Assembly: GCF_014678725.1 (NCBI RefSeq)
Contig: NZ_CP061497.1
Location: 2,310,001 to 2,374,000 of the forward strand
DNA from: Thermomonas sp. XSG
Lineage (GTDB): Bacteria; Pseudomonadota; Gammaproteobacteria; Xanthomonadales; Xanthomonadaceae
DNA: 64,000 bases
Reading direction: 5' to 3'
Shown: piece by piece, positions 38,634-55,029 of the stretch
How positions within the stretch are numbered: position 1 is the stretch's first letter
How the letters are laid out: every line of letters begins with the position of its first letter
Made by a program: the position numbers and the translations under genes
The notes under the pieces: model-generated
Told to the model about the DNA's origin: nothing
The model's input: the letters and a program-made list of their open reading frames with translations, nothing else
Databases searched by the model: none

Positions 38634-38705
38634 TCAGGGCGACTTGGCCGGCGGCGGCGCGAACGGGATGGTGTCCGGCGCCACCGCGCCGCCGCTGATG
38701 ATGAA
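38634..38705 (-). pseudogene. Displaced 3' end of the DUF502 gene (left attachment side)
   Basis: In frame on the minus strand these 24 codons read FIISGGAVAPDTIPFAPPPA then KSP and stop, matching the end of the DUF502 protein at 54361-55029 (FIISGGAVAPDTIPFAPPQA, then K). It is the original chromosomal 3' end cut off by integration. The frame continues into element DNA to an ATG at 38750, giving a 38-residue hybrid (MTTNSCTPSFTAPLK followed by the relic). Confidence 0.85.
38651..38705 (+). repeat. attL: 55-bp direct repeat, left copy
   Basis: Perfectly identical to 54372-54426 over 55 bp and diverging immediately on both sides (G versus T before; T versus G after). Marks the left boundary of the integrated element inside the 3' end of the DUF502 coding sequence. 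Confidence 0.92.
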
Positions 38706-38836
38706 TTTCAGCGGCGCGGTAAATGATGGTGTGCAAGAGTTCGTTGTCATACCTGTCTATCCTGCTCTTTGAGCCTTGATATTATTGGGTTGGGCGCTTG
38801 CGGGCGATGAAATAGTGGTGTAGCTTCCGGGGGTAA

Positions 38837-40342
38837 GTGGTAGCAACCCGTAGCGGCCGGATGGATACCAAAGCAATGCAAAAACGAGATCTTGGAGCCG
38901 ATGAGAGGGCGAAGCCCGGCGAGGCCGCGGTGCATCTCGACACCGCAACTGTGCGCGGACTGGCGATCCCCGACAAGGGTAGCCGGCTATGGCTCGACGA
39001 CGAGATCCCCGGCTTCGGCTGCCAGGTCACCTATGGCGGGACGAAGACTTTCCGGCTTCGCTATCGGCGCGGAGGCAAGTGGTACTCGCTCAAGATTGGC
39101 CGTTGGCATGACCCGGGCGAGCGGCTCAGGCCTTCGCGCGGAGCCGCTCAGAAAAGCGAGGGCATCTCGGCGGGGGATGCGCGCGTCAAAGCGGCAGAGC
39201 TCAGGCGCCAGATCAACGCCGGCGGGCACCCGGCATTCGAGGTGCGGGCAGCAGCTGCCGAACAGCAGCGCGCCGAGCGCGGGCTGGTCACGGTGCGCCA
39301 GGCGTGGGCGGAATACTGCGGCACCGATGAGGCGCCGGGTTTTGTCTACCAACGCGCCCGGCCGATGGCCCCGAAGTCGATCCTGCAGATCCAGACCTCG
39401 TTCGCGAATCACGTGGAGCCGCGCATCGGCGGTCGCGCCATGTCGAGCATCGAGGCGGAAGACATCGAAGCCATCGCGCTCGAGGTCGGCAAGTCGCGCA
39501 TGCGCAAGGGCCGGAAGGTCGGCGGCCCAGCTGCGGCGCGTCATGTCGTCGCGCACCTGTCCGCGTTCTTTGCGTGGGCGCTCAAGCGCAAGCTCGTCAA
39601 GGCGAATCCGGCGAAGGCTATCGATCGGGGGGAAGTGCTGGAGCCGGCGCCAGTCCGCGAGCGCTACCTCGCGCCGGAGGAGTTCGACGCCGTCATGCGC
39701 GCGCTGGACGAATGGCCCCTCGTGGCCAAGCGCGGCTCTCGGCATGGCCCGGCGAAGATCGTTCGATTGGACGAGCCGCAGGTGCGGCAGCTGGTGAGCT
39801 GCGAGGCGTTCCGTGTCGGCCTGCTCACGGCAGCCCGAAAGAGCGAGGTCTACAAGATGCGGTGGTCGGACGTCGACCTCGACACGCGCGTATGGCGTCG
39901 GCCTGCCCGGACGATGAAGGCGCGCAAGGCGCACGAGATCGTTTTAGCGCCGACCGCGGTCAATTCCCTGCGGAAGCTGAGGGATGCACATGGCGATCCG
40001 GTGTTCGCGTTCCCGGGCAAGCAGCGGCTGGATGCCCTCATCGCCGGGCGTAGGTTGAAGGGCGACGAGGGTGGGCCGATGAAGGACGCGCACGAGCTCT
40101 GGGGCCGCATCCGCCGGACTATCGGCCTGGACGACGTGACCATTCACGACCTGCGGCACACCGCTGCGAGCGTGCTCATAAGCGCCGGCTACACGCTCGA
40201 CGACGTCGGCGCCCAGCTGGCGCACGCGAACCCGCAGACGACAAAGCGCTACGCGCATCTCATGCACGAACGCAAGCGCGAGATGGCCGACGCGATGGAG
40301 GCATTCTCGAACATGCGCAAGCAGTCGGCGCCTGCCGGCTAA
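38837..40342 (+). CDS. Tyrosine site-specific integrase
   Basis: A 501-residue integrase next to attL. N-terminal arm-binding domain (FGCQVTYGGTKTFRLRYRRG, as in the DUF4102-type), core-binding domain about 150-260, catalytic domain with R334 (TAARKSEVYKMRW), K364, H437 and R440 (HDLRHTAAS), H463 and the nucleophile Y472 (TTKRYAHLMH). All catalytic residues are present. Start uncertain: GTG 38837 with GGGGG just upstream, or ATG 38861. It targets a protein-coding 3' end rather than a tRNA gene. Confidence 0.93.
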   Translation: MVATRSGRMDTKAMQKRDLGADERAKPGEAAVHLDTATVRGLAIPDKGSRLWLDDEIPGFGCQVTYGGTKTFRLRYRRGGKWYSLKIGRWHDPGERLRPSRGAAQKSEGISAGDARVKAAELRRQINAGGHPAFEVRAAAAEQQRAERGLVTVRQAWAEYCGTDEAPGFVYQRARPMAPKSILQIQTSFANHVEPRIGGRAMSSIEAEDIEAIALEVGKSRMRKGRKVGGPAAARHVVAHLSAFFAWALKRKLVKANPAKAIDRGEVLEPAPVRERYLAPEEFDAVMRALDEWPLVAKRGSRHGPAKIVRLDEPQVRQLVSCEAFRVGLLTAARKSEVYKMRWSDVDLDTRVWRRPARTMKARKAHEIVLAPTAVNSLRKLRDAHGDPVFAFPGKQRLDALIAGRRLKGDEGGPMKDAHELWGRIRRTIGLDDVTIHDLRHTAASVLISAGYTLDDVGAQLAHANPQTTKRYAHLMHERKREMADAMEAFSNMRKQSAPAG

Positions 40343-40405
40343 ACGCCCGAGCCCGGTGCAGCAACACCGGGCGCGGACTTCCACAACCGAAGGGAGACTT
40401 CGATC

Positions 40406-40687
40406 ATGGCAATTGCAAACGATACCGCGCCGCGTGGCGAGGTTGTAGCTTTCCCCGGGCGCCGAGTCCGCCCCTTGAATGAGGACCAGCTGCCGGCGCA
40501 CTGGTCGCGCCCCCTGCGCACGCACTACCTGCGCGTGACAGACGGCGATTTCACGCCGCACGCGGAGGCGTTCAACTACTGCCAAACGATGGCCGCCCTG
40601 CAGCGCGGAGAGGAGGAAAGCGAGCGGGACTATATGCTGCGCTGCGCGCGTGCCGCCGTCGCGTTGCTGCCGCGACGGGAGGGCTGA
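40406..40687 (+). CDS. Hypothetical protein of the element
   Basis: A 93-residue acidic/basic mixed protein not recognised. It begins after a good AAGGGAGA ribosome-binding site. WSRPLRTHYLRVTDGDFTPH and NYCQTMAALQRGEEESERDY are visible but unassigned. First small gene after the integrase. Confidence 0.6.
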   Translation: MAIANDTAPRGEVVAFPGRRVRPLNEDQLPAHWSRPLRTHYLRVTDGDFTPHAEAFNYCQTMAALQRGEEESERDYMLRCARAAVALLPRREG

Positions 40688-40691
40688 ATCG

Positions 40692-41105
40692 GTGGCCAGA
40701 GGAAACCTCGAAGGTACGAAGCTGCGCTACGCACTGCATCGTTCAAGGTGTGGAGACCCTTCGCACATGCCAGATGCGTTGCTAGGGATCGCGCAATCAC
40801 TGCGCCGAGGCGATTCCTTGCTTCCTGAGGAAGCTGAGTTTCTCGCGGCAGCTCTGGAGCAAACAGCAACTTCAGAAAAGCCCGCAGTAGAGATCGCCAA
40901 TGCTTTCGGTCTCAGTCGACGCAAAGGAAGAACTCAGGCCGAGAAATTCGACCGGGCATATCCTCGTGCGATGAGGGCATCCGAGCTCATCGAGGGAGGA
41001 CTTACTCATGAGGCTGCCTTCACTGCTACCGCTGCCGAGTTTCACTGCGACGAGTCTCGGATCTCAGAGGCCTACTACGATCTGCGCGACTACCTCCGCG
41101 ACTAA
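40692..41105 (+). CDS. Hypothetical protein, possible HTH-type, AT-richer than neighbours
   Basis: A 137-residue protein not recognised. Middle part SEKPAVEIANAFGLSRRKGRT and the end HEAAFTATAAEFHCDESRISEAYYDLRDYL read like two helix-turn-helix-type segments, so a DNA-binding role is possible. GTG at 40692 has GGAGG about 10 nt upstream; ATG 40767 is an alternative. Codon use is less GC-rich than in surrounding genes. Confidence 0.5.
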   Translation: MARGNLEGTKLRYALHRSRCGDPSHMPDALLGIAQSLRRGDSLLPEEAEFLAAALEQTATSEKPAVEIANAFGLSRRKGRTQAEKFDRAYPRAMRASELIEGGLTHEAAFTATAAEFHCDESRISEAYYDLRDYLRD

Positions 41106-41178
41106 TTGCGTCATTTGTCGCCCATGACCATCAACTGAATTTCCAATTCACTGGCCCCAACTTCCCAAGGGGCCAGCG

Positions 41179-41382
41179 ATGAACCCGATTTCGTGCCAGT
41201 CCAAACCCGCGCCGATCGCAACCCTTAGCGATTGGATGCCGCTCGCTGTCTACCTCGACTTGAAGGGCGTCACCCGGCGCGCTGTCTCGGCTCGCCCTGA
41301 TATCAAACGCCGCAAAGTGCGCGGCCGGGTCGAGATCCACCGCAGCGCCCTCGACGTGACGTTCCGCGGGGGTGCCCGATGA
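41179..41382 (+). CDS. Excisionase-like small DNA-binding protein
   Basis: A 67-residue basic protein. LSDWMPLAVYLDLKGVTRRAV followed by RRKVRGRVEIH resembles phage excisionases, in which a Trp-Xaa-Pro-Leu start is followed by a recognition helix and a wing. The ATG at 41179 lies after AAGGGGCCAGCG. Next gene overlaps by 4 nt (ATGA). Likely role: directing the integrase to excise; inference from similarity of pattern only. Confidence 0.5.
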   Translation: MNPISCQSKPAPIATLSDWMPLAVYLDLKGVTRRAVSARPDIKRRKVRGRVEIHRSALDVTFRGGAR

Positions 41383-41609
41383 GCGCCGGCCTCGACGCTC
41401 AGGCTACCCGCCTGCTAGCGCGGCTGCGCCGCGGCCCCATCACCTCGCTGCAGGGACTCGAAGAGCTCGGCATCGCGCGTACCGCATCCCGCGTCTGCGA
41501 GCTGCGCAAGGATGGTCACGAGATCCAGTCCGAGTACGTGAAGGTTCGCGACCGCTACGGGAGCAAGTGCCGCGTTGCGCGCTATCACCTGGTCAAGGAG
41601 CGCGCGTGA
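41379..41609 (+). CDS. Winged-helix type small phage protein
   Basis: A 76-residue protein with a pattern common in phage regulators: QATRLLARLRRGPITSLQGL, GIARTASRVCELRKDGHEI, a basic wing VKVRDRYGSKCRVARYHLV. Helix-turn-helix fold of the winged type is likely. Overlaps both neighbours (ATGA at its start, GTGA at its end). Confidence 0.6.
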   Translation: MSAGLDAQATRLLARLRRGPITSLQGLEELGIARTASRVCELRKDGHEIQSEYVKVRDRYGSKCRVARYHLVKERA

Positions 41610-41833
41610 ACGACCTCGAGGAAATCATCGCGAAGCTTCGCGACAAGGCGACGATGCAGGGCATTGCAGGCACCGATTCCGGGCGCGCGGTACTGCAGCG
41701 GATTGCAGACGACTATGCAAGGCTCGAGGCAGAGCTTGCGGCGAAAGTTCCAGAGATGCAGCGGCTACTTGGCCAGTACCGTGAGGTGCTGAGGCTGGCC
41801 CGTAAGTACCTGCGCAAGGGGTGGCTGGCATGA
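41606..41833 (+). CDS. Small helical protein
   Basis: A 75-residue, almost wholly helical, charged protein (MNDLEEIIAKLRDKATMQG ... RLEAELAAKVPEMQRLLGQY) with coiled-coil character. GTG start overlapping the previous stop by 4 nt. Not recognised. Confidence 0.55.
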   Translation: MNDLEEIIAKLRDKATMQGIAGTDSGRAVLQRIADDYARLEAELAAKVPEMQRLLGQYREVLRLARKYLRKGWLA

Positions 41834-42057
41834 CTCGCGCAACCATCCCTCCGCCGGCGCCTAGCGCACTGGTCGCAGATCTCGAAGACCGCAAGCTCTC
41901 GTCTCGGGCTGCTGCGCAGTACCTGGACGTCCACCCGGTCACGTTGCGCAAGTGGCGCCGCAGCGGCGCAGGCCCCGCATGGCACGTCACCGATGGCGGA
42001 AACATTCGCTACTCCCTTTGCGAGCTGCGTCGCTGGTCGGAAGGGAGGCGTTCATGA
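41830..42057 (+). CDS. AlpA/MerR-like helix-turn-helix protein
   Basis: A 75-residue protein with an HTH_17-type domain: LSSRAAAQYLDVHPVTLRKW, then SGAGPAWHVTDGGNIRYSLC and ELRRWSEG. This form is shared by AlpA-like activators and excisionases of phage satellites. ATG overlaps the previous stop (ATGA). Confidence 0.7.
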   Translation: MTRATIPPPAPSALVADLEDRKLSSRAAAQYLDVHPVTLRKWRRSGAGPAWHVTDGGNIRYSLCELRRWSEGRRS

Positions 42058-42398
42058 GCGCCAAGCGTCGCGCGAAGGTGCGCGAGAAAGCAAAGCGACT
42101 TCGCGACCGCTCCACTGTGCGCGTGGTCGGGATCGATAAGCCCGGCGACGTCTGGACGCATATCCAATCCCCGCTCACCGTTGGCAACACCCACCGGTTC
42201 ATGGTGCCGATGCGGGGCGATGGCCGACTTAGCGATTTCGCCTATGTCGTCGAAGTGGCGACGCGGATGATCGACATCATCCCGACCGAATCTCTGGCCG
42301 ATCTTCTTCCGCACCTTCCTGCGAATGGCCGCGCCCATATCGAGGGCGTTCTCGCTCAGTACAGGGCCGAGCGCTCGGGTCAGTGGGGGCATGCTTGA
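42054..42398 (+). CDS. Hypothetical protein preceding the primase
   Basis: A 114-residue protein with a very basic N-terminus (MSAKRRAKVREKAKRLRDRS) and VWTHIQSPLTVGNTHRFMVP in the middle. Not recognised. ATGA overlap with the previous gene; its stop overlaps the primase start (TTGA). A role in replication is suggested only by position. Confidence 0.55.
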   Translation: MSAKRRAKVREKAKRLRDRSTVRVVGIDKPGDVWTHIQSPLTVGNTHRFMVPMRGDGRLSDFAYVVEVATRMIDIIPTESLADLLPHLPANGRAHIEGVLAQYRAERSGQWGHA

Positions 42399-44557
42399 AT
42401 CAGGCTGCCGAATACATCTCCCACGGCTGGGCGTTGTGCAACATCCCGCCTGGCAAGAAAGGCCCGGAAGGTCTTGACGCAAAGGGATGGAACACACAAG
42501 GGCGGGCGATCCGAGATCCGCGCAAGCTGCGCGGTGGGCACAACGTCGGCCTGCTGCATGCATGGTCAGGAACCGTCGCGATCGACATCGACCAGTACGA
42601 TGCGGCGGTCGCTTGGCTTGAGGGGAAGGGAGTCGACCTGCAGCAGCTGCTAGCTGCCGACGATGCAGTGCAGATCAAGAGCGGGCGGCCGAACAAAGCG
42701 AAGCTGCTCTATGTCGTCCCCCAAGGGGTCGATCCGCTCGGCCTTTCGTCGGTCTCCATCCACGCTACCGAGCCCAATGCAGAGGGTAAGTTCCCGGTCA
42801 TTCTCGAATTCAGGTGCGCGACGAAAGACGGCCTATCCGTGCAGGACGTGCTGCCACCGTCGTTCCACCCGCTGACAGGGAAGCCCTACGAATGGGGTGG
42901 CGATTGGCGCGAGGTGGGCGAGCTTCCCGAGGCCTTGCTCAAGCTCTGGCGCGAGCACCTGGACGAAGACGACCGGAGCCGCCGTAAGCGCGGCGCCACC
43001 GGCCCTGGAACAAGTGCCGAAGTTCTCGACATGGTGCGCCGTGCGCAAGCTGCTGGCCTCAAGCCGTACCGATGCGGGGACGGATTCCGGGCCTACTGCC
43101 CCGTGCATGGTGGTGAGAGCGGGACTACGTTCAAGATCGACGAGGGTGGGGGCGGCAAGGTGCTGGTGCACTGCCACGCCAAGTGCGCGCCAGAGGCCAT
43201 CTTCGCGGCACTCCCTGGGCGTGACCGTGGGGTGCCGGCCGTCTCAACAGTCGAGCAGCTCAAGCGCGCGCAGGATGCCCGCAAGGCACCGCTTGGCTCC
43301 AGCGGAGCCGTCATCCTGCCCGCCATGCCCGAGGAGCTGCTCGCGTTGCCTGGTGGCTTGGGCGAGCTGCAGCGATGGATCGTCGGCTACATGTCGCATC
43401 CGTCGCCTGGCGCTGCCGGTGTGGCGGCGCTGGCCACGATGACGCACTTCGCCATGTCGCACCTTGGCATCGCCAGCCGCGACGGGCTCGGGTTCAATGA
43501 GCAGTACCTGCTGCTGGCGCCGACCGGCTTCGGAAAGGAAGACCTACGCAAGCCGATTCGCAAGATCGCCGAGGCCTTGCCGGATCGTCTGCCGCGCACC
43601 GCAGGCAACCTCACCATCCAGCGCCTTCCAGAGGTACGCGAAAACGCACCGGCCTCGCTGCAGGGCATGCATAGCGCGCTCGAGCTCAACCGCGCCCATA
43701 CCTTTCTGCCCGACGAGTTCGGCGAGTGGCAGGCGCATGCGGCCAAGGATGGCCACAAGCAGCAGGCGGCCGCGTACGCGATGCAGGCCTATACCAAGGC
43801 GTTCGGGGTGCTCGAAGCACCGAGTGTGTCGACGCACGGCAACGCTAAGCCTTACATGCCGGTGAAGCACCCTCGCGTACTCATCTTTGCAACCTCGACC
43901 GCCGAGAGGATGCTCGAGGCGGTGACGGCCAGCCAGGCCGATAGCGGCGGCCTGAACCGCTTCGTGATTCTTGTCGCCGAGCAGGATCGCATCGCCAAGC
44001 GCTACCCAAGCGCCAAGGCGTCGGACTACGTTCCGCCCAACGCAGTGCTCGACCTGGTCGCATGGGTGGCCTCGCTGCCTGAGCAGCTGCTACCGCTCGA
44101 GCCCGAGGCATGGGACTACCACGACGCGCACGATGCTGCCGTGCTTGAGGTGCTCGCCTATCGCGATCCGCGCCTTGCGAAGCGTCTCAACGAGCAGGCA
44201 CTCAAGCTGGCCGGTCTCGTGGCGTTGGGTGAGCGCCGACTCACTGTGACGGCACGCGACCTCGCCATCGCTTATGCCATTCGCGAGGGGCTCTATCACC
44301 GGGCCGCGGCGCTGGTCGGCTATGACGGCGCGCTCAGTGGAATGCACCCGACAGGGCGGGCACTAGAGCAGATCCGGCAGCACCTGGTCGAGAAGCCGTT
44401 TATCTATCGGTCGCACCTGCCGAAGGTCTCGCGGAAGTTCGCCGGTCTCTCGATCCCCGAACGCGAGGCGGTGTTGCGGGCAGTTCAAAGCGAGGGGTTC
44501 GCAAAGCTCGACGGCGGAAAGCTGGTCTCGCTCATTCACGAGGAGGCCGCTGCGTGA
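42395..44557 (+). CDS. Primase-polymerase/helicase replication protein
   Basis: A 720-residue multidomain replication protein. Residues 1-190: bifunctional primase/polymerase (AEYISHGWALCNIPPGKKGP, WSGTVAIDIDQYDAAVAWL). About 215-290: zinc-binding/primase-type segment (FRAYCPVHGGESGTTFKIDE ... VLVHCHAKCAPEAIF). From about 300: ATPase domain with a degenerate P-loop LLLAPTGFGKEDLRKPI and FLPDEFGEWQ, similar to DUF3987 proteins. The TTG at 42395 has TGGGGGC just upstream and makes a 4-nt overlap like its neighbours; GTG 42383 would add four residues. Likely replicates the excised element from the repeat array just downstream. Confidence 0.8.
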   Translation: MNQAAEYISHGWALCNIPPGKKGPEGLDAKGWNTQGRAIRDPRKLRGGHNVGLLHAWSGTVAIDIDQYDAAVAWLEGKGVDLQQLLAADDAVQIKSGRPNKAKLLYVVPQGVDPLGLSSVSIHATEPNAEGKFPVILEFRCATKDGLSVQDVLPPSFHPLTGKPYEWGGDWREVGELPEALLKLWREHLDEDDRSRRKRGATGPGTSAEVLDMVRRAQAAGLKPYRCGDGFRAYCPVHGGESGTTFKIDEGGGGKVLVHCHAKCAPEAIFAALPGRDRGVPAVSTVEQLKRAQDARKAPLGSSGAVILPAMPEELLALPGGLGELQRWIVGYMSHPSPGAAGVAALATMTHFAMSHLGIASRDGLGFNEQYLLLAPTGFGKEDLRKPIRKIAEALPDRLPRTAGNLTIQRLPEVRENAPASLQGMHSALELNRAHTFLPDEFGEWQAHAAKDGHKQQAAAYAMQAYTKAFGVLEAPSVSTHGNAKPYMPVKHPRVLIFATSTAERMLEAVTASQADSGGLNRFVILVAEQDRIAKRYPSAKASDYVPPNAVLDLVAWVASLPEQLLPLEPEAWDYHDAHDAAVLEVLAYRDPRLAKRLNEQALKLAGLVALGERRLTVTARDLAIAYAIREGLYHRAAALVGYDGALSGMHPTGRALEQIRQHLVEKPFIYRSHLPKVSRKFAGLSIPEREAVLRAVQSEGFAKLDGGKLVSLIHEEAAA

Positions 44558-45009
44558 CTTGGGACAAATTGGGACGGATTTGGACGGTATCCGTCCAACT
44601 GCTGAAACGTAAGCGGGACGCGGGTTGTATGGCAGAAAAAGAGAGAGATTTTCCTATTTTCCTTACCCATACACCCTGTATGCATTTGGACACTGCGGGG
44701 GTGCTGTCCAAGTGTCCAAATGTCCAAATCGTCCAAGTGAAAAAGCACCCCGGCGCAGCTTCACCGCTTGCCCAAGGCGGCGGCCTGATTCGGAGCGGGG
44801 CGGCTTCCTTGCGGAGCGCAGGCCGTGCTTCCGGGGTGGAGACAGGTTGCGCCTGGGCGCGGCGTGTGTCCGTAGGGGAATGCCGCATAGAGGGGTGGGT
44901 AAAGCGCTCGCCGCAGATCGCCAGAGACCGGATTTCAGAGGCTGGCCGAACCAATTTTCAGGAAGCTACGAATTGCACTATCTCACGCGGTGCTGTTCCG
45001 TTGACTTAA
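44554..45009 (+). CDS. Doubtful frame over the repeat array
   Basis: A 151-codon frame beginning GTG that overlaps the primase stop by GTGA, as do other genes of the element. However the product (MTWDKLGRIWTVSVQLL ...) has irregular composition, is encoded by the GTCCAA repeats and resembles nothing known. It ends inside the -35 region of the late promoter. I think it is probably not a gene, but the coupling pattern keeps it open. Confidence 0.25.
   Translation: MTWDKLGRIWTVSVQLLKRKRDAGCMAEKERDFPIFLTHTPCMHLDTAGVLSKCPNVQIVQVKKHPGAASPLAQGGGLIRSGAASLRSAGRASGVETGCAWARRVSVGECRIEGWVKRSPQIARDRISEAGRTNFQEATNCTISRGAVPLT
44559..44736. repeat. TTGGAC/GTCCAA repeat array, candidate replication origin
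   Basis: TTGGGAC (44559-44565, 44569-44575), TTGGAC (44580-44585) and GTCCAA (44593-44598), the last two forming the inverted repeat TTGGACGG-TAT-CCGTCCAA. Then TTGGACA (44686-44692) opposite TGTCCAA (44705-44711), and four direct GTCCAA copies at 44706, 44714, 44722 and 44731 (spacing 8, 8, 9). The stretch 44600-44690 is AT-rich for this genome. Iterons, inverted copies and AT-rich DNA directly after a primase gene are the signs of an origin. Confidence 0.6.
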
Positions 45010-45028: not shown

Positions 45029-45037
45029 GGAATCAGC

Positions 45038-45142
45038 ATGTTGAATCGCCTCACAAATCAGATTTTGCATACGCTTCGCATCCGCGCGGCGGCCTTCGAC
45101 CTGCGGCCCGGCTTTGGCCGTGAGGGGGATCGTCATGGCTGA
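45038..45142 (+). CDS. 34-residue leader peptide frame before the late genes
   Basis: ATG at 45038 (AAAGGA 6 nt upstream) opens 34 codons beginning MLNRLTNQILHTLRIR and ending inside the next gene: its stop TGA (45140-45142) lies 8 nt within it, ATGGCTGA. The transcription start expected from the 45001-45028 promoter lies only about 3 nt before this ATG. May act as a coupling leader; translation is unproven. Confidence 0.4.
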   Translation: MLNRLTNQILHTLRIRAAAFDLRPGFGREGDRHG

Positions 45143-45989
45143 GCAACGGGATGCCGTGAACCTGTTCGCCAATACCCCGGAGCGTGCCGAACGGGGGTTC
45201 CTGCGGCGGATGCCCGATTTCAGCCGCGACGGCTTCGACATCGACACCGGCCGGATGCACCAGCAGTCGCTGCGGGCATCGTTCGGTGTGTGGGCCGGTG
45301 ACGAGCTGCGGGGGCTGCCGAACCTGGACGAGGGCGCCGAGGGAGACGAAGACCTCCAGGCGCTCAAGACGGTGCATACGCAGAGCATCGAGACGTTCGC
45401 CCAGATGGCCGACACCCTGCGGCAGCTGGGCACCGATCGCAGCGAGGGCATGGACAACCACGCGCGCCTGCGGACGGCGGCCAGGGTGCTCGAACCCAAG
45501 CTCGCGCGCCTACGCCAGACAGCCGAGCGCGAGATCGCGCGGGCCGAGGCCGCCATCGCGTCCGAGCAGGGGGAGATCGAGCGGGCTACCCGGGCGGCGG
45601 ACGCAGGCGAGGCGGTCACGCATGGCGAGATCCGCGCCCACTGGAAGGCCATGCCCGACAGCGAGCGCACTGGGCACCTGCTGGCGCCCAAGCTCGCCCA
45701 GCTCGACGCGGACACCCTGCGAGCCCTCGCCAGCGCGCCGGCGTACATGACCGGACTGTCCGAGCAACAGCACGCCAAGGTGCGCGAGGAGGCCGCACGG
45801 CGCGTGGCGCCCGCCAAGCTGGCACGGCTGCAGCGGCTTCGCGCTGGCCGTGCGCTCGCCTCGACTGCGGTCGAGACGCTGGAACGCCGGGCGCATCGCC
45901 TGGTCGACTTCAACCGCGCCCGCCAGCTGGCAGAGGCTGAGGCGGCGGCGCGAGCCAAGCGCGCCGAGCGCTACGGGGTGACCGAGTGA
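45135..45989 (+). CDS. Phage-type coiled-coil protein of unknown function
   Basis: A 284-residue, highly charged, mainly helical protein. VLEPKLARLRQTAEREIARA and later LEPKL/LAPKLAQLDADTL segments suggest coiled coils. Not recognised; a scaffold-like or minor structural role would fit its place before tail genes but is a guess. ATG at 45135 with GAGGGGGA upstream, the first ribosome-binding site of the late operon. Confidence 0.65.
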   Translation: MAEQRDAVNLFANTPERAERGFLRRMPDFSRDGFDIDTGRMHQQSLRASFGVWAGDELRGLPNLDEGAEGDEDLQALKTVHTQSIETFAQMADTLRQLGTDRSEGMDNHARLRTAARVLEPKLARLRQTAEREIARAEAAIASEQGEIERATRAADAGEAVTHGEIRAHWKAMPDSERTGHLLAPKLAQLDADTLRALASAPAYMTGLSEQQHAKVREEAARRVAPAKLARLQRLRAGRALASTAVETLERRAHRLVDFNRARQLAEAEAAARAKRAERYGVTE

Positions 45990-46300
45990 ACCCGCGCAGC
46001 CTGGCGTCGCTGGCGCCCCCGCCGAGTTTCCGCCTGCTGGTGAAGCTGCCGGTGCCGGGGCGCGCCGGCGTGGTCGAGATGCGGTTCCGCACCCGCACCC
46101 GCACCGAGCTCGCCGAGTTTGCGAAAGAGCTGGCCGGCATGACCGACGAGGCGGCGATTGCCGCGGTAGCCGAGGGTTGGAACCTGGCGGACGAATTCAA
46201 CGCCGAGAGCATCGCCGCCCTGTGCGAGGCGGTGCCGGGTGCGGGGCACGCGATCGTGCAGGCGTACCTGCGCGAGAGCACCGGAGCGGAGGTGGGATAA
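45986..46300 (+). CDS. Phage tail assembly chaperone
   Basis: A 104-residue protein: SFRLLVKLPVPGRAGVVEMR, a beta-rich start, then FRTRTRTELAEFAKELAG, DEAAIAAVAEGWNLADEF and IAALCEAVPGAGHAIVQAYL. This pattern is typical of tail assembly chaperones, which bind the tape measure protein and are encoded directly before it, as here. GTG start overlapping the previous stop (GTGA). Confidence 0.75.
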   Translation: MNPRSLASLAPPPSFRLLVKLPVPGRAGVVEMRFRTRTRTELAEFAKELAGMTDEAAIAAVAEGWNLADEFNAESIAALCEAVPGAGHAIVQAYLRESTGAEVG

Positions 46301-48499: not shown

Positions 48500-49047
48500 G
48501 GATGGCAGTCTGCCGCACCTGCCAGCACCCGGACGTCGAGCGAATCAACATGGAGCTCGCGCTCGCACCGAACGTGCATACCGTGGCAGCACGATATGAC
48601 ATCCCCCGGCGGTCGCTGGCGCGACACCGGCGCCAATGCCTCACACAACAGGAAATTGCCCGCATGCGGGGCATGTCACCCTCGCAGCTGGAAGTCGACA
48701 TCGACGAGCTTGCACGCAAGGGTGGCCAGGATGCCTATATCGGGTTGAGCCGGTTGCTCGAGGAGTGCAAGGTTCAAGCCAAGCGCTGCGACACTATCGG
48801 ACAGCCCCGCGAAGCGGCGATCTACCGGAAGCTGCAGCTCGACATCTACGACAAGAAATTGAAGATCGCGGCCATGTACCCGGGCCGCAAGACCGTCACG
48901 AACAACAACCTCGTGCTCGGCGACGTCGGCATGCTGTTCGACCTGGTCGACGCGACGCTGCGGCCCTTCCCCGAGGCTCGGCGCGCAGTGGCCGATGCAT
49001 TCGCCAGGCAGGCGCAAATGCCGCCAGTGCTGGAGCATGCGGCTTGA
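48496..49047 (+). CDS. Candidate small terminase subunit
   Basis: A 183-residue protein. An N-terminal CRTCQHPDVERINMELAL (CxxC...H, zinc-ribbon-like) leads to an HTH-type segment VAARYDIPRRSLARHRRQCL, then helices (YIGLSRLLEECKVQAKRCDT). Position before the large terminase and DNA-binding character fit a small terminase subunit. Start: ATG 48496 overlaps the previous stop (ATGA); ATG 48502 is an alternative with a better ribosome-binding site. Confidence 0.6.
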   Translation: MRMAVCRTCQHPDVERINMELALAPNVHTVAARYDIPRRSLARHRRQCLTQQEIARMRGMSPSQLEVDIDELARKGGQDAYIGLSRLLEECKVQAKRCDTIGQPREAAIYRKLQLDIYDKKLKIAAMYPGRKTVTNNNLVLGDVGMLFDLVDATLRPFPEARRAVADAFARQAQMPPVLEHAA

Positions 49048-49838
49048 GCGGCAGTGCGGCCCGCATCTTCCGCGCGCAGGCATGGCGCAATGATCCCGTG
49101 CTCATGATGCGCGACGCCGGGTTCGATCCAGACCCGCACCAGGTCGAGCTGCTGCGCAACCGCGAGCAGCAGGTGCTGGTGCTCTGGCCGCGCCAGTCCG
49201 GCAAATCTCAAACCTGCGCGACGCTGGTCTTGCATGCGGCATGCTTCGATCCGGGCGACATCGTCATCCTCGCCGGCGAGAAACAGCAGCAGGCGCAAGA
49301 GGTCTTCGAGAAAGCGTTCGAGATGCACGAGCGTCTGCTCGAGATCGGCGAGCTCCCCAGCGCCACGCGCTCGGGTGACGAGCTCAAGTTCGCCAACAGG
49401 TCGCGCATCCTCGCCAAGCCGTCGAGCGTGGAATCGGTGCGCGGCTACGCGGCCAAGCTGGCGCTCATCGACGAGGCGGCATTCACTGGCCCGAACACCC
49501 TCGCTAAGGTCATGCCGATGCTTTCGGCGACCAACGGCCGCCTCGTTTGCCCGTCGACGCCGAACGGCGACAGCGGCTGGTGGCGCGACGCATGGAAGGG
49601 CGGCGACCCCGCCTGGTCGCGCCTCACCGTCACCATCGATGCGCTGCCGCGCCTCACGCAGGCCGAGATCGCGCGGCAAAAGGCACTGCTCACGCCGAAC
49701 CAGTTCCGGCAGGAGTTCCTGCTCGAGTTCCTGGACACCGACATGCAGTTCTACCCAACCGAGACCATCGAGCAGTTCATCCGGCACGACGACGTGGAGC
49801 CGCTGTTCCCCGACTTGCTCGCAAGGATGGCCGCATGA
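49044..49838 (+). CDS. Terminase large subunit, ATPase part
   Basis: A 264-residue ATPase half of a large terminase: adenine/Q motif (DPHQVELLRNREQQVLVLW), Walker A PRQSGKSQT, IVILAGEKQQQAQEVFEKAF, Walker B-type LALIDEAAF, and the coupling PSTPNGDSGWW. It ends LFPDLLARMAA just where the nuclease half would continue in a usual 450-residue terminase. TTG start overlapping the previous stop (TTGA). The nuclease is a separate gene. Confidence 0.85.
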   Translation: MSGSAARIFRAQAWRNDPVLMMRDAGFDPDPHQVELLRNREQQVLVLWPRQSGKSQTCATLVLHAACFDPGDIVILAGEKQQQAQEVFEKAFEMHERLLEIGELPSATRSGDELKFANRSRILAKPSSVESVRGYAAKLALIDEAAFTGPNTLAKVMPMLSATNGRLVCPSTPNGDSGWWRDAWKGGDPAWSRLTVTIDALPRLTQAEIARQKALLTPNQFRQEFLLEFLDTDMQFYPTETIEQFIRHDDVEPLFPDLLARMAA

Positions 49839-50503
49839 GCCTGGTCGAGTTCGAACGCGCGTTTTTCGCAGGCGTGGACATCGGCCAGGTGCAAGACAAC
49901 ACGACCGTTGCAATCGTCGAGCGCATCCGGCCGCGCCCGGCCACGGGGTTGCATCACGGCCTGCTCCCGGTGGCGAAGGAAGAGGCCGCGGCCATGCCGA
50001 CGAAGCTGCAGCTGCGCCACCTGGAGCGCTTGCCCCTTGGCATGGCCTACCCCGACCAGGTCGAAACGCTGCGCGAATTGCTGACCCGGCCGCAGATTCG
50101 CGACGTGCAGACATTCCTCGATGCAACCGGCGTCGGTCTTGGCCCCTTCCAGATGCTACGGAAGGCCGGCGTTCGCGACTTGCACGCAATCAAGATCACC
50201 GGCTCGGTAGGCGCCGCGAAGGAAGTCCCCGGCGGATGGAACGTCGGCAAGGCTGAGCTCGTCAACGCCGTGCAGATCGAGATGCAGACAGGGCGGCTCG
50301 GCACCAGCATGAAGATTCCGCACGTGGGCCAGCTCGTTCACGAGCTGCGCAACTTCCGTGCCCGGCAGAGTCCAAGCGGATCACTGAGCTTCAACGCGCG
50401 CGAGGGCCAGCACGACGACCTGGTGCTCGCTGTGGCCTATGCAGTTTTCGGCGCGCTGCGCCCGTCGCCCGTTACCCATCTCGACGTGAGGTTTGCAGCG
50501 TGA
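49835..50503 (+). CDS. Terminase large subunit, nuclease part (separate gene)
   Basis: A 222-residue RNase-H-fold nuclease domain: FFAGVDIGQVQDNTTVAIV with the first Asp, GVGLGPFQMLRKAGV, and the C-terminal REGQHDDLVLAVAYAVFG with the Asp pair. It would be the C-terminal half of the packaging motor but is separately translated, ATG overlapping the ATPase stop by 4 nt (ATGA). A single-base frameshift of an originally fused gene cannot be excluded by the sequence alone. Confidence 0.8.
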   Translation: MSLVEFERAFFAGVDIGQVQDNTTVAIVERIRPRPATGLHHGLLPVAKEEAAAMPTKLQLRHLERLPLGMAYPDQVETLRELLTRPQIRDVQTFLDATGVGLGPFQMLRKAGVRDLHAIKITGSVGAAKEVPGGWNVGKAELVNAVQIEMQTGRLGTSMKIPHVGQLVHELRNFRARQSPSGSLSFNAREGQHDDLVLAVAYAVFGALRPSPVTHLDVRFAA

Positions 50504-51903
50504 ACCCCCTCAAACGCTTCTGGAACAAGACCATGACCCAAGGTGGCATCACCGAATACACCCATCCCGAGTTCGACAGGTACTCGCCGCTCTGGCGGAA
50601 GGTGCGCGACGTGTGCGCCGGCGAGGATCGCGTCAAGGAAGGCAAGACCCTGTACCTGCCGAACCCTTCCGAGGTCAACACCGACGCCAGCCGCTACGCG
50701 CGCTACCTGGAGCGCGCTGTTTTCTTCAACGCCACCGGGCGGACGCTGCAGGGATTGGTGGGCATCGCTTTCGGTAACTGGCCCGAGATCAAGGTTACCG
50801 ACAAGCGCCTGCTCAGCAACCCGGACGGCAGCGGCGTGGGCCTCATCGGGCAAGCTCAATGGATGCTGGCCGAGATCCTACAAACCGGCCGCGGTGGCCT
50901 GCTGGCCGATTGGTCGCGAGGCGATGGCATCAAGCGCACGCGTACGATCGCCCAAGCCGAGATCGCTGGATTCCGGCGCTACGTCGCCCCCTACACCGCC
51001 GAGAGCATCCTCACGTGGGAGCGCAGCGACGGCCGCCTCAGCCGCGTGGTGCTCAAGGAGCACCACGAGGAACACGTCGGCGGCGAAATCCAGTATCGCC
51101 CCCGTTTGCGCGAGCTGCGGCTCGAAGGCGGGCGCTACCGCATCAACTTGTGGGAGCAGGCTGCCGATGGCGGCCAGTTCTACCTGTTCGACACGGTGGA
51201 GACGACCCTCGATTTCATCCCCTTCCAGTTCATCGGGGCGGTCAACAACGACGCAACTCCCGACACCCCGCCGCTGCTGGACTTGGCCAATCTCAACCTG
51301 GCGCATTACCGCGACAGCGCCGACTACCAGGAAAGCGTCTACCTCATGGGCCAGCCGATGCTGGTCATCTCCGGCGTCACCGACGAGTGGGCCGAGAAGG
51401 CCGGCACCATCCGATTCGGAGCACGCTCCGGCCTGCCCCTCCCCCAGGGTGGCGACGCCAAGGTGCTACAGGTCACCGGGAACACGCTGGCCAAGGAGGC
51501 GATGGGCGACAAGGAGCGGCTCATGGCGCTGGTCGGCGCCCGGCTGCTGGAGACGGCTGGCGCAAAGACGGCAACGCAGAGCGCCAGCGAGACCCGGGCG
51601 GCATATTCCCAGCTCTCCCTGGCCTGCGACAACGTCTCGCAGGCCTATACGCAGGTACTCCAATGGGCGGAAGGCAACACGGCCTCGAGCCTGGACATCG
51701 ACACCCGCTTCAATGACCTGACCCTCGACGCCAACGCGATCCGCGAGACTGTGGCCGCGTGGCAGGCCGGGCTGGTGCCGCAGTCCGATGCGGTGGCCGT
51801 GCTCCAGCGCTTGGGCGTCATCGATCAAGGGAAGACCGCCGAGCAGGTGGCGGGGGAGGTTGAAGCCCAAGGCCCCGGCCTGAACCTGGACGCCGCGGCA
51901 TGA
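50500..51903 (+). CDS. Phage portal protein (DUF4055-type)
   Basis: A 467-residue portal with features of the DUF4055 family: HPEFDRYSPLWRKVRDVCAG, LYLPNPSEVNTDASRYARYL, VGIAFGNWPEIKV, and the later HYRDSADYQESVYLMGQPML. Portals form the dodecameric ring at the capsid vertex through which DNA passes. GTG start overlapping the nuclease stop (GTGA). Confidence 0.85.
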   Translation: MNPLKRFWNKTMTQGGITEYTHPEFDRYSPLWRKVRDVCAGEDRVKEGKTLYLPNPSEVNTDASRYARYLERAVFFNATGRTLQGLVGIAFGNWPEIKVTDKRLLSNPDGSGVGLIGQAQWMLAEILQTGRGGLLADWSRGDGIKRTRTIAQAEIAGFRRYVAPYTAESILTWERSDGRLSRVVLKEHHEEHVGGEIQYRPRLRELRLEGGRYRINLWEQAADGGQFYLFDTVETTLDFIPFQFIGAVNNDATPDTPPLLDLANLNLAHYRDSADYQESVYLMGQPMLVISGVTDEWAEKAGTIRFGARSGLPLPQGGDAKVLQVTGNTLAKEAMGDKERLMALVGARLLETAGAKTATQSASETRAAYSQLSLACDNVSQAYTQVLQWAEGNTASSLDIDTRFNDLTLDANAIRETVAAWQAGLVPQSDAVAVLQRLGVIDQGKTAEQVAGEVEAQGPGLNLDAAA

Positions 51904-52361
51904 CGCTCGTCGCCGAAGATGGCACCGGACTGGCCGGCGCCGAGAGCTATGCCAGCGTGGCAGCGGCAGATGCCTATTTCGCAGCCCGGGGCAACGATGC
52001 CTGGCCCGGGCTCTCGACGCTGGCCAAGGAAGCCGCGCTGCGGCTCGCCACCGACTACATGGGGGCGGTCTATGGGCGGCTCTGGCGCAGCTGCAGGAAG
52101 ACGGAGACGCAGGCGCTCGACTGGCCGCGCGTCGGGTGGGCCGGCGTCCCGACTGCCATTGAGCGCGCCTGCTGCGAGCTGGCATTCCGCGCCTCGGCCG
52201 GGCCGCTCATGGTCGACGAAGGGCCGCAGGTGGCCAGCGAGCAGGTCGGCCCGATCGCGGTGGCCTACTCCGAAGGGGCGCGGCAGAACGTGCGCTATGC
52301 CCACGTCTGGGCGCTGCTCGGCCCGTACCTCGACGCCCACCTCATCGTGACGAGGGGCTGA
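51900..52361 (+). CDS. DnaT-like head-tail connector
   Basis: A 153-residue protein. TGLAGAESYASVAAADAYFAARG, KEAALRLATDYM and ALDWPRVGWAGVP are typical of the phage proteins annotated as putative DnaT-like / head-tail connector. ATG overlaps the portal stop (ATGA). Confidence 0.7.
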   Translation: MTLVAEDGTGLAGAESYASVAAADAYFAARGNDAWPGLSTLAKEAALRLATDYMGAVYGRLWRSCRKTETQALDWPRVGWAGVPTAIERACCELAFRASAGPLMVDEGPQVASEQVGPIAVAYSEGARQNVRYAHVWALLGPYLDAHLIVTRG

Positions 52362-52362
52362 G

Positions 52363-53445
52363 ATGACCAGCCGCCCCGACTTGACCGACCAGGCGGTGCG
52401 CCAGCAGGTGCTGCTCGAGCGGGTGAAGGCTGGCGAAGCCGCCCGGATCGACGCTTTCCTGCAGCAGCAGGACCGCCGGCTTCGCGAGATCCTGACGAGG
52501 GCCAGCCTGACGGCCGTGCAGCGCGACCGTATTGAAGCGCTGCTGCGGGAGGTCCGGGCCGCGCTGGAAGCGTTGCACCGTGACTACACCCGCGCCCTAA
52601 CCGCGCGCCTGGATACGCTGGCGGGCACGGTGGCGGACATGGAAGCCCGAGCGCTCGGCGCGGCGCTGGAGGGCGTCGACGTGGCGACCCCGGCCGCACC
52701 GGCGCTCCGGGCCGCCGTCACGGCCGCGCCGCTGGCCGTGCGCGGGGCAGGGGGCGGGATGCTGCTCGAGCCCTTCATCGCGGCGTGGACAAGCGCCAGC
52801 ATCGAGCGCGTCGAGGGCGTCATCCGGCGCGGCTACTTCGAGGGCCGGACAACCGAGCAGATCGTGCGCGACGTGCGCGGCACGAAGGCGGCCAACTATC
52901 GCGACGGCATCCTCGAGGTGAACCGGCGCAACGCCCGCACCGTGGTGCATACAGGGCTGCAGCACGTCGCCCACGTCGCCCGCACGGAGACGATGAAGGC
53001 CAACGCCGATATCGTGAAGGGCTACCGCTGGGTCTCGACCCTGGACAGCCGCACGAGCGAGCTCTGCCAATCCCTGGATGGCCGCACGTTCGACCTGGGC
53101 GAGGGGCCGCTGCCGCCCGCGCACCCGAACTGCCGCTCGACCGTCGTGCCGGTCACGAAGACATTCCGGGAGCTGGGGATCGACGTCGACGAGGTTCCGC
53201 CCGGTACCCGCGCCAGCGTCGACGGGCAGGTGCCGGCGTCGCTGACCTATTTCGAGTGGCTCAAGACGCAGCCGGCGAGCTTCGTCGAGGAGGCGCTCGG
53301 GCCGACACGCGCTGCCGTGTTCCTCAAGGGCGGGATCTCGTCCGACGACTTCGCCACGCTGCAGCTCGGGCGCAACTTCCAGCCGCTCACGATCGAGGAG
53401 ATGCGCGAGAAGGCCCCGAAGGTGTTCGAGCGGGCGGGGGTTTAG
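52363..53445 (+). CDS. Minor capsid / MuF-like head morphogenesis protein
   Basis: A 360-residue protein. N-terminal coiled-coil, middle GYFEGRTTEQIVRDVRG and HVARTETMKANADIVKGYRW, C-terminal MuF-like block DSRTSELCQSLDGRTF ... PPAHPNCRSTVVPV (Cys/His pattern). MuF proteins lie next to portals and take part in head assembly or ejection. Nothing capsid-like follows; its last 4 nt overlap the convergent NYN gene. Confidence 0.85.
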   Translation: MTSRPDLTDQAVRQQVLLERVKAGEAARIDAFLQQQDRRLREILTRASLTAVQRDRIEALLREVRAALEALHRDYTRALTARLDTLAGTVADMEARALGAALEGVDVATPAAPALRAAVTAAPLAVRGAGGGMLLEPFIAAWTSASIERVEGVIRRGYFEGRTTEQIVRDVRGTKAANYRDGILEVNRRNARTVVHTGLQHVAHVARTETMKANADIVKGYRWVSTLDSRTSELCQSLDGRTFDLGEGPLPPAHPNCRSTVVPVTKTFRELGIDVDEVPPGTRASVDGQVPASLTYFEWLKTQPASFVEEALGPTRAAVFLKGGISSDDFATLQLGRNFQPLTIEEMREKAPKVFERAGV

Positions 53446-54137
53446 GCGACCGCAGGCGCGGCTTCCGATTTCCCTTTTTGTGGCGGCTTCGGCTTAGGGC
53501 AAACGGAACGCATGCCGTCTATGTGCTCGTTTAGGCTGTCTGGCACATTTCTCCACATGGGATCTAAGACAAAGTCGATTCCTTCTCGCCTGGCGAGCTT
53601 CGCAGCCGGCACGAAGTCAGCATCGCCAGCCATGAGAATGATCTGATCGACTTGCTTCTTTAGGGCCAAAGAGGAGATGTCGATTCCGATTCGCATGTCG
53701 ACACCCTTCTGCCGTGTCGCCGGGACAACCATATCGGGAGTTAGCGAGTCGACAGCAATCTTCCCCTTGAGGATGTCGTTTAGCGTTTCTGCATCTGTAG
53801 TCCATGTGACGGCATCACTCAGATGCCCAAGCCTGAGCGCAACTTTGCGCTTTAGCTTCAAGAGTCGATGCAGCGACTTGCGAAATAGCGCCTCGTCGGA
53901 TTGCGAGAAATCAATGGATTTTTTCGTGATCGGGTTGTGCAGCTTTTTTTCGAGAGGCGGGCAGTCGTAAAAGAAGATTCGATAGAGCTCTCGCCTTTTG
54001 CCACCCTGCGAGAGGTGTGCGAGCGCCCATCGAAACGCCTGCTCTGATGCTCGCTCGGCGTTGTACGAATTGTGCGGCTCGATTCTTCGAAACCGTTTGA
54101 CGAAGTAGCCGCCATCGATCAGGACTGCAGTTGCCAT
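53442..54137 (-). CDS. NYN-domain (PIN-like) nuclease candidate, accessory cargo
   Basis: A 231-residue protein of the NYN/LabA-like (DUF88) family of PIN-fold RNases: VLIDGGYFVKRF with Asp8, YRIFFYDCPPLEKK, KGVDMRIGIDISSLA and QIILMAGDADFVPAAKLARR supply the acidic residues of a metal-dependent nuclease site. The Lys-rich C-terminus (KPKPPQKGKSEAA) is a tail. Start at 54137 with GGGGGAAA upstream. It is opposite to all other element genes, AT-richer, and lies next to attR, the usual place for cargo. Defence or exclusion role possible, unproven. Confidence 0.8.
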   Translation of the reverse strand: MATAVLIDGGYFVKRFRRIEPHNSYNAERASEQAFRWALAHLSQGGKRRELYRIFFYDCPPLEKKLHNPITKKSIDFSQSDEALFRKSLHRLLKLKRKVALRLGHLSDAVTWTTDAETLNDILKGKIAVDSLTPDMVVPATRQKGVDMRIGIDISSLALKKQVDQIILMAGDADFVPAAKLARREGIDFVLDPMWRNVPDSLNEHIDGMRSVCPKPKPPQKGKSEAAPAVA

Positions 54138-54152
54138 GTTTCCCCCGGACAC

Positions 54153-54209
54153 AAAAAAGCCCCCGGTTCGGCCGACCCTGGATGAGGTGGGTGGCGTAGT
54201 AAGGGGGCT
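54153..54209 (-). promoter_or_regulatory. Hairpin leader with T tract upstream of the NYN gene
   Basis: Minus strand: AGCCCCC (54209-54203) pairs with GGGGGCT (54164-54158) over a 38-nt loop and is followed by TTTTTT. It has the form of an intrinsic terminator but stands 16 nt before the NYN start codon, as in attenuators or leader RNAs. Confidence 0.5.
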
Positions 54210-54229
54210 GGATGAAATGAATGTTGCGA

Positions 54230-54260
54230 TTAGGCATTGCCTAAGTCAAGCCAGCTTGAC
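54230..54260. promoter_or_regulatory. Two adjacent palindromes near attR
   Basis: TTAGGCA-T-TGCCTAA (54230-54244) is a perfect 15-bp palindrome and GTCAAG-CCAG-CTTGAC (54245-54260) a perfect inverted repeat directly abutting it. Suitable as operators or integrase/excisionase arm sites. Confidence 0.45.
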
Positions 54261-54360
54261 TCTGCTGGCAATGGTCTATTAAGGATACAAAAGGTGTGCA
54301 AACGTCTGAAATGGCCTTTTCGCGCTTCGCCTTCAACATGCGGCGATAGCCTGAAACCCG

Positions 54361-55029
54361 CTATTTTGCTTGCGGCGGCGCGAACGGGATGGTGTCCGGC
54401 GCCACCGCGCCGCCGCTGATGATGAAGCTCATCGCCTGGTCAACCGTCCAGTCGGTCGGGGTGATCTTCTCCATCGGCACGATCTCGAGGTAGCCCGAGG
54501 TCGGATTGGGCGTGGTCGGCACGTACACCGCCGCCAGTTCGCGGCCAGTACCGATTTCGCGCATCACCCGGGTGACGAAGCCGAGCGTTTTCATCTCGTT
54601 GTGCGGAAAGTCGATCAGCACCACCCGTTGGGTGCCATCGGGTTTGGTCTGCAGGATGTCCAGCAGCTTGCGCGCGCTGCCATAGATGGTGTTGGCCAAC
54701 GGGATACGCGCCACCAGGGCCTCGAACCAGCGAAGGAGGCGTTGTCCCACCACCCGCCGCGCCAGCCAGCCGGCCAGCAGGATGAAGCCCACCGTCGCGA
54801 CCAGCGCGATCGCATTCTGCACCCACGGCTCCACCAGCCAGCCGAACGTGCGCGGATTGCCATCGGCGATGCTGGCGAGGCCAGGTTCGACCAGCGGCTT
54901 GCTGAGATCACCCAGCAACACGAACACGAACTTCACCACCACCCAGGTCAGCCACAGCGGCAGCAGGGTGAGCAGGCCGGTCAGGAACAGGCGCTGCAGA
55001 CGCAGGCCAAGCGAGGGGGCAGCAGACAT
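54361..55029 (-). CDS. DUF502 membrane protein, target gene of the element
   Basis: A 222-residue protein with two membrane segments (LTGLLTLLPLWLTWVVVKFV; NAIALVATVGFILLAGWLA) and the DUF502 core IPLANTIYGSARKLLDILQ, LIDFPHNEMKTLGFVT and AVYVPTTPNPTSGYLEIVP. Function unknown. The element sits in its 3' end but supplies a replacement tail, so the last residues are FAPPQAK instead of FAPPPAKSP: the protein stays intact. The start lies 6 nt after TAGAAT (leaderless candidate). It originally led the operon with yhhQ. Confidence 0.88.
   Translation of the reverse strand: MSAAPSLGLRLQRLFLTGLLTLLPLWLTWVVVKFVFVLLGDLSKPLVEPGLASIADGNPRTFGWLVEPWVQNAIALVATVGFILLAGWLARRVVGQRLLRWFEALVARIPLANTIYGSARKLLDILQTKPDGTQRVVLIDFPHNEMKTLGFVTRVMREIGTGRELAAVYVPTTPNPTSGYLEIVPMEKITPTDWTVDQAMSFIISGGAVAPDTIPFAPPQAK
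54372..54426 (+). repeat. attR: 55-bp direct repeat, right copy
   Basis: Identical to 38651-38705. Forms the end of the coding part of the DUF502 gene; the following 11 nt to the stop codon (54361-54371) come from the element. Confidence 0.92.

Follow-up and report, generated by a model that had tools for sequence, protein, structure and literature searches.

A candidate phage satellite of Thermomonas sp. XSG with its own two-gene terminase, portal and tape measure genes but no recognised capsid gene

Results

A 64,000-bp stretch of Thermomonas sp. XSG DNA (NZ_CP061497.1, positions 2,310,001 to 2,374,000; here called the window) contains a 15.7-kb element in which integration and replication genes are followed by phage packaging, head and tail genes. 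We consider it likely that this element is an integrated satellite of a separate lineage, which would bring the nucleators, rulers and packaging motor of a virion itself and take capsid, tail tube, tail tip and lysis proteins from a helper phage. A decayed prophage is improbable. A previous reading made from the sequence alone had offered two explanations, a satellite or a prophage with an internal deletion. The first fits better, because relatives in which no capsid was found are conserved in other genera, the core gene order and a split terminase recur in them, the open reading frames (ORFs) are intact and one pair of relatives shows purifying selection; the deletion is disfavoured.

Limits of the element and its packaging, head and tail genes

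The precise repeats claimed by the sequence-only reading are indeed present: 55 identical bases flank the element, with a start-to-start spacing of 15,721 bp. The right copy forms the 3′ end of a DUF502 gene (54361–55029, minus strand). The stop codon of this gene (54361–54363) lies on the element side of the repeat, and the last codons of DUF502 therefore come from the element. ORFs were assigned by Pfam and PHROG profile scans; the roles of many phage and island genes were initially assigned by inspection, after which the main ones were checked with profiles.

38651–38705, unstranded: attL, 55-bp exact repeat, copy of the DUF502 3′ end (sequence identity)
45135–45989, plus strand: o45, conserved protein, predicted all-helical, putative lineage marker (conservation, structure model)
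45986–46300, plus strand: tail assembly chaperone (TAC; PF08748, 1.9e-18)
46301–48499, plus strand: tape measure protein (TMP), 732 amino acids (PHROG 27166, 7e-38; PHROG 1538, 8e-35)
48496–49047, plus strand: probable terminase small subunit, terS (position, 4-base overlaps, conservation; only sub-threshold Pfam helix-turn-helix (HTH) matches)
49044–49838, plus strand: ATPase gene of the terminase large subunit, TTG start (Terminase_6N, 7e-13; PHROG 7579, 3e-39)
49835–50503, plus strand: RNase H-like nuclease gene of the terminase large subunit (PHROG 27743, 3e-25)
50500–51903, plus strand: portal protein, DUF4055 (PF13264, 2e-33; PHROG 145, 4e-117)
51900–52361, plus strand: head-tail adaptor Ad1 (PHROG 477, 1e-39)
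52363–53445, plus strand: MuF minor head protein (PF04233, 9e-12; PHROG 241, 7e-138)
54372–54426, unstranded: attR, 55-bp exact repeat at the DUF502 3′ end (sequence identity)

The terminase, portal, connector, MuF, tape measure and chaperone genes listed by the sequence-only reading were all recovered by the profiles, but their order has to be corrected, as the chaperone and tape measure genes precede the terminase.

Relatives at the same chromosomal site and in viral contigs

Searches of 198 genomes of the host family gave a 62% identical primase match in genome G173 and MuF matches of 68–69% in G173 and G078; a MuF match of any strength was found in seven of these genomes, including that of the window. 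Three more chromosomal members were identified, in G173, in Lysobacter niastensis (G078) and in a Pseudoxanthomonas metagenome-assembled genome (MAG; G199), all with the same two flanking genes and a DUF502 repeat at both ends. The core gene order, which the sequence-only reading had proposed to look for in related genomes, recurs in other genera, at the same site. The G173 element adjoins the same vitamin-transporter gene at the DUF502 site and encodes integrase, primase, o45, neck gp10, chaperone, TMP, terS, ATPase, nuclease, portal, Ad1 and MuF. In the L. niastensis element, which has a 38-bp DUF502 repeat at each end, the replication gene is different, a LamG-like protein (arabinofuranosidase-like according to Pfam) replaces chaperone and TMP, and Ad1 was not found. 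The Pseudoxanthomonas MAG element has DUF502 pieces at both ends.

IMG/VR contributed four members (L111, 15,258 bp; L119, 14,137 bp; L135, 15,098 bp; L143, 12,767 bp) and five fragments (L030, L122, L123, L124 and L126). Two contigs are permuted. In L111, the 3′ half of a tRNA-Val gene (anticodon read by eye; ARAGORN found no whole tRNA at this junction) separates MuF from the integrase, which comes after it. L143 opens within the final part of the tape measure gene, continues through MuF, the integrase, the replication gene and o45, and breaks off in the tape measure gene again. Such an order is as would be expected from an excised circle, a concatemer or a tandem array; the ends of L111 have no terminal repeat and no overlap, so circle closure is not supported for this contig.

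Two observations concern the region around the tape measure gene. The L119 protein (L119:7410-9638) is only 28% identical to that of the window, versus 42–55% in most other members, which suggests a domain exchange. A protein of about 200 amino acids is encoded between TMP and terS in L112 (L112:12858-13487) and on the reverse strand of L111 (7331–7936); the L112 copy has a weak match to PHROG 13702, labelled terminase, and looks Ntn-hydrolase-like by eye.

A terminase encoded by separate ATPase and nuclease genes

Junction translation showed that terS, ATPase and nuclease genes each share 4 bases with the next. All 13 members and fragments have the ATPase and nuclease genes in different frames, and in 12 of the 13 the two genes share 4 bases; the exception is L. 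niastensis, with about 310 bp between them. For L122 and L123 the overlap was read from the ORF table plus a junction check, as an alignment-start walk met an early stop. The terS-like protein is 38–63% identical across relatives, and the window ATPase is 58–71% identical to the ATPases of four relatives. Against phage records, the ATPase had 1,047 matches, all below 60% identity and at 27–36% among the 15 matches listed, and the nuclease had a single match (27% identity) in 50,697 records. The G173 nuclease homologue matches Terminase_6C (7.5e-5). A frameshifted, decayed terminase was considered and rejected, because the same split recurs in relatives.

Search for capsid, tail tube and lysis genes

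The sequence-only reading had recognised no capsid, tail tube, fibre or lysis gene, and our scans agree: none of the element ORFs scanned matched a Pfam or PHROG family of head (capsid, scaffold or protease), tail (tube, tip or fibre) or lysis proteins, and the absence of capsid and tube was also seen with phage queries. These virion queries, with labels taken from PHROGs, were the major head, scaffold, major tail and terminator proteins of a prophage in G173, the head and scaffold proteins of phage L041, and two tail proteins of L122. In the window element, no match was obtained with any capsid, scaffold, tube or terminator query, whether from the two phages or from L122, and the capsid, scaffold and major tail queries matched none of the 13 members and fragments. 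Twelve of the 13 had no match to any virion query; L122 matched only its own two tail proteins and, weakly, the terminator query. The L122 protein that we first took for a tube belongs to PHROG 290, 'minor tail protein'.

Four control phage loci were each detected by queries of their own kind, not always by those of the other kind; for example, the G173 prophage head protein (HP_MCP) missed phage L031, which the L041 head protein detected. Because of this behaviour of the controls, a distant capsid could be missed. The capsid profile PF05065 was absent from all five member contigs searched, a profile that also misses the capsid type of the G173 prophage (no match in G173).

The conserved protein o45 and a graded series of smaller elements

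The only sizeable element protein without a family assignment is o45, which had no Pfam match above threshold and no PHROG, PADLOC or phage-record match; its G173 copy gave one sub-threshold YqeY match (0.024). The protein is predicted to be all-helical (pLDDT 81), unlike an HK97-type capsid, and the model had no Foldseek match at E ≤ 0.001. All eight members whose contigs span its place encode it. In 395 genomes of the family (E ≤ 1e-3), 17 matched, four of them strongly. Among 360 genomes of the class, matches came only from that of the window and, weakly, from G711.

We examined the neighbourhoods of six of the 13 weak family matches (G250, G247, G288, G008, G084 and G123; the remaining seven had E values of 2e-4 to 9e-4) and of G711. 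The elements in G008 (L220) and G123 (L222) consist of integrase, HTH, Toprim/AAA_25 replication gene, o45, terS-like gene, ATPase and nuclease; no portal was found in either, and they are possible terminase-only relatives. Those in G247, G288 and G711 (L218, L219 and L223) are smaller, with integrase, AAA_25 replication gene and o45 followed by a DUF5681 protein, which we take to be terS-like. G250 has an integrase, a D5-type primase and o45, and G084 an integrase and o45, its supposed replication gene giving only sub-threshold HTH matches. The G123 and G250 elements have 45-bp tRNA att repeats; a clear att repeat was not found in the other five.

The all-helical model, the lack of a structural match and the occurrence of homologues in simpler elements disfavour o45 as a capsid protein. 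The best reading of these data is that o45 marks a distinct satellite lineage, and it could serve as a marker for finding further such satellites.

Comparison with siphophages and the exchange of tail genes

In G173, a satellite and a siphoprophage occur in one genome. We compared six phages, from G173, G229, G127, G283, G375 and G105. Relative to the first four, Ad1 of the window is 51–58% and its chaperone 33–42% identical, and the G173 satellite gives 40–51% for neck gp10 and 44–52% for the chaperone; on the head side the values are 27–28% for the portal and 36–39% for MuF, and the terminase is unmatched. Matches to G375 and G105 are limited to chaperone or tape-measure pieces. By sequence identity, the tail side is thus closer than the head side to known siphoprophages of the host family in four of the six phages. 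The gene order in these phages is terminase-portal-MuF-scaffold-capsid-Ad1-gp10-terminator-tube-chaperone-tape measure. According to the sequence-only reading, full-length relatives with capsid, tube and lysis genes in the gaps would point to a decayed prophage; full phages with related pieces were indeed seen, but they have an unsplit terminase, a different gene order and a MuF protein outside the satellite clade.

In the G173 satellite TMP (676 amino acids), the first 38 and last 343 residues match the start and last 360 residues of the 890-residue prophage protein. The TMPs of six satellites have 732, 676, 707, 704, 742 and 718 residues and those of the six phages, which are all longer, 890, 777 (752 from its ATG), 813, 1003, 883 and 753, where the G283 protein is a 753-residue ORF chosen over a longer one (1002 residues) further downstream. 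A shorter TMP as a satellite rule is unsupported, since L122 (957 residues), L126 (941 residues) and the phage-like locus G241 (701 residues) break it and G375 and G105 match over short stretches only. The tape-measure context was examined in 15 matching regions plus G167; several showed the tape measure match alone and stay unclassified. Identity to the G241 counterparts is 77% for the L122 terminator and 81% for its PHROG 290 tail protein. Phages and satellites thus appear to exchange the tail cassette, and the core is o45-terS-ATPase-nuclease-portal-MuF. As a side observation, the G173 assembly starts within another copy, identical in sequence, of part of the prophage tube gene (G173:C1:2-217), a partial duplicate or an assembly overlap.

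Descent and selection

A tree of 79 MuF proteins placed the nine satellite rows in one clade (support 100/98), recovered as a single group in all 200 bootstrap trees, with the four prophage rows outside. The nearest outside row is L041, which we rejected as a further satellite: its unsplit terminase, scaffold and capsid make it a phage. The dN/dS values between the Pseudoxanthomonas element and L119 were 0.06–0.18 for six genes and 0.35 for o45, which indicates purifying selection on these seven genes in this pair. Between L143 and L123, dN/dS was 0–0.31 in four genes, the ATPase row (12% identity, one stop) being excluded for a frame offset. Disrupted genes and a lack of conserved copies of the gene set, the marks of a decayed prophage, were not what we found.

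Integration, regulation, replication and right-end genes

The remaining features of the element are as follows.

38837–40342, plus strand: tyrosine integrase, 501 amino acids (PF00589, 1.5e-20; PHROG 1, 3e-53)
40406–40687, plus strand: small ORF, coding by the look of its codon-position GC (no Pfam or PHROG match)
41179–41382, plus strand: possible excisionase-like ORF, 67 amino acids (only PHROG 4515, unnamed, 0.0074)
41379–41609, plus strand: winged HTH protein (HTH_39), 76 amino acids (PF14090, 9e-14; PHROG 4973, 7e-12)
41821–42057, plus strand: HTH_17 (AlpA/excisionase-like) regulator, 78 amino acids (PF12728, 3.7e-8; PHROG 66, 7.3e-9)
42383–44557, plus strand: prim-pol/helicase replication protein, 724 amino acids (PF09250, 2e-16; PHROG 3022, 1e-27)
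44580–44736, unstranded: iteron cluster, seven TTGGAC/GTCCAA, probable replication origin (hexamer count)
53442–54152, minus strand: NYN-domain protein, accessory right-end gene (PF01936, 1.7e-9; PHROG 5783, 6e-86; PADLOC NYN, 2e-5)

Profile matches support the integrase and the AlpA-like regulator that had been proposed from the sequence (PHROG 66 is labelled excisionase and regulator); the proposed excisionase reaches only 0.0074, and another small ORF turned out to be an HTH_39 protein. The integrase is 55% identical to the G173 copy and 53% to the G078 copy, and the prim-pol/helicase 62% identical to its G173 homologue. A primase-helicase followed by iterons had likewise been described, and the PF09250 match and the hexamer cluster bear this out: seven of the 17 TTGGAC/GTCCAA hexamers of the whole window fall within 157 bp, outside of which no 220-bp stretch holds more than one. 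At the counterpart position G173 has eight GCCCAA/TTGGGC copies in 348 bp. The cluster is the probable replication origin. The slot after MuF is variable, with NYN in the window, DUF3800 in L. niastensis and other ORFs elsewhere, and is possibly a cargo or defence slot.

Outside the window, the host genome contains an island (G000:C1:443230-453386, L147) that resembles capsid-forming phage-inducible chromosomal islands (cf-PICIs). By Pfam it encodes integrase, HTH_17, a gp6-like connector, a PF05065 capsid, an S78 protease, portal, small and large terminase and a head completion protein.

Discussion

Portal rings start procapsids, tape measure and chaperone proteins start and size tails, and the terminase chooses the DNA that is packaged. 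The element has its own motor, portal and ruler but no recognisable shell gene, and hybrid particles are therefore probable. In the proposed cycle, it would excise and replicate from its primase and iteron-type probable origin, supply portal and MuF for the head, Ad1 for the joint and chaperone and TMP for the tail, and package its DNA with its own terminase motor. Capsid, tube, tip and lysis proteins of a helper siphophage would be added onto these parts to give chimeric particles, and o45 might, as a guess, redirect packaging or capsid assembly toward the satellite.

Several points weigh against this reading. The queries detect only their own branch, and the element may encode a very divergent capsid. 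The portal shares only 27–28% identity with portals of the candidate helper class. A tube match of this class was found in one of the four satellite genomes (G173) versus 12 of 395 genomes, some of them weak, and this co-occurrence is not convincing. The tail cassette is not fixed: L122 carries an additional tail protein and a tail terminator, and G078 lacks chaperone, TMP and Ad1.

Of the other explanations, an interference satellite, whose portal, MuF and TMP would poison helper assembly while its DNA travels in otherwise helper-made particles, is unlikely, though the least so. PLE11, one of the phage-inducible chromosomal island-like elements (PLEs), stops helper tail assembly through a dedicated protein, as stated in the available part of PMC12987554, and the tail cassette differs between members; yet a complete terminase-portal-MuF set under purifying selection suits packaging better, and the TMP of PLE satellites is a virion part in the same source. 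We regard as quite improbable a functionless remnant of a temperate siphophage that lost its capsid, tube, tip and lysis genes. The element does consist of phage genes with pieces missing, and in L041, the nearest phage in the MuF tree, MuF is followed by scaffold and capsid. Against this stand the recurrence of core order, split terminase and intact ORFs across genera, the well-supported MuF clade, the low dN/dS values of one pair and the permuted contigs.

A complete minimal phage with o45 as an unrecognised shell protein is very unlikely: all eight members covering its place encode o45 and it has no known relative, but the helical model without structural match and the homologues in elements without a portal found (G008, G123) or beside DUF5681 only (G247, G288, G711) speak against it, and tube, tip and lysis would remain missing. 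Hardly any weight falls on a relation to cf-PICIs in which the capsid was lost and shells of another resident satellite are used. Island L147, with capsid, protease, portal and terminase, would be an example in the host genome, but it has its own portal and connectors, the element's portal, MuF and terminase queries were unmatched there, and the other three satellite genomes had no PF05065 match.

Within the satellite reading, we tentatively propose, at slightly less than even confidence, a new family that owns only nucleators and rulers plus a two-gene terminase, with the bulk polymers supplied by the helper, at the far end of a ladder of o45 satellites. If true, the ladder would lead from o45 and little else, through o45 with a split terminase, to o45 with terminase, portal and tail ruler, and PICI-like elements would become phage-like step by step. 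Heads as well as tails would be chimeric, and satellites could control whose genome fills a virion by supplying its nucleating and measuring parts, not its shell. The graded relatives make satellite gain and loss of virion genes testable.

Comparison with known systems

The element is integrative, has packaging functions and lacks part of the virion genes, as phage satellites in general do. We found no description of a capsid-less satellite that encodes both a portal and a complete terminase in the mostly open-access literature, including the available parts of PMC12987554, PMC10690885, PMC4936722 and PMC11389934. With PICI and P4-like satellites, as far as the sources consulted in part describe them, it shares the size (about 15 kb), the order integrase, AlpA-like regulator, primase-replicase and origin, and a specific att site. 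These satellites have a terS or a capsid-size factor at most; the element has the whole motor, portal and head-tail parts (MuF, Ad1, TMP, chaperone), which sets it apart from classical PICIs.

In the accessible text of PMC4936722, AH14b of Pseudomonas is an inducible 16.8-kb element that likewise carries AlpA and primase genes and whose DNA apparently travels in capsids made by a 55-kb helper prophage. It differs in that VIRFAM found no head-neck-tail proteins, one gene resembling tail assembly protein I, and in that this text names no terminase of its own; the element encodes one.

The cf-PICIs, as far as covered in PMC10690885, also carry integrase, regulator, terminase, portal and connector genes, and the element likewise has its own small and large terminase and portal, terS being assigned by position and conservation. 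They encode a major capsid protein and a protease, neither of which was found in the element by profiles or, for the capsid, by capsid queries; the element has a split terminase, MuF and TMP. Putative tmp genes are reported for some cf-PICIs (Extended Data Fig. 10 legend of PMC12987554).

The PLEs are defined by PLE-specific genes, a Vibrio host and dependence on ICP1; the host family of the element includes Lysobacter. Like the element, which carries genes for a TMP and a TAC, PLE satellites of Vibrio cholerae have their own TMP and tail chaperone, and they take tube and capsid from the helper. Their virions take up the PLE-encoded TMP and lose that of the helper, giving tails 10 nm shorter, and these chimeric tails were demonstrated by TEM, western blot and mass spectrometry (available part of PMC12987554). 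Compared by description, PLEs differ in their contractile tails, and only the element adds its own terminase, portal, adaptor and MuF, which would extend the logic of a satellite TMP in the tail to the head side.

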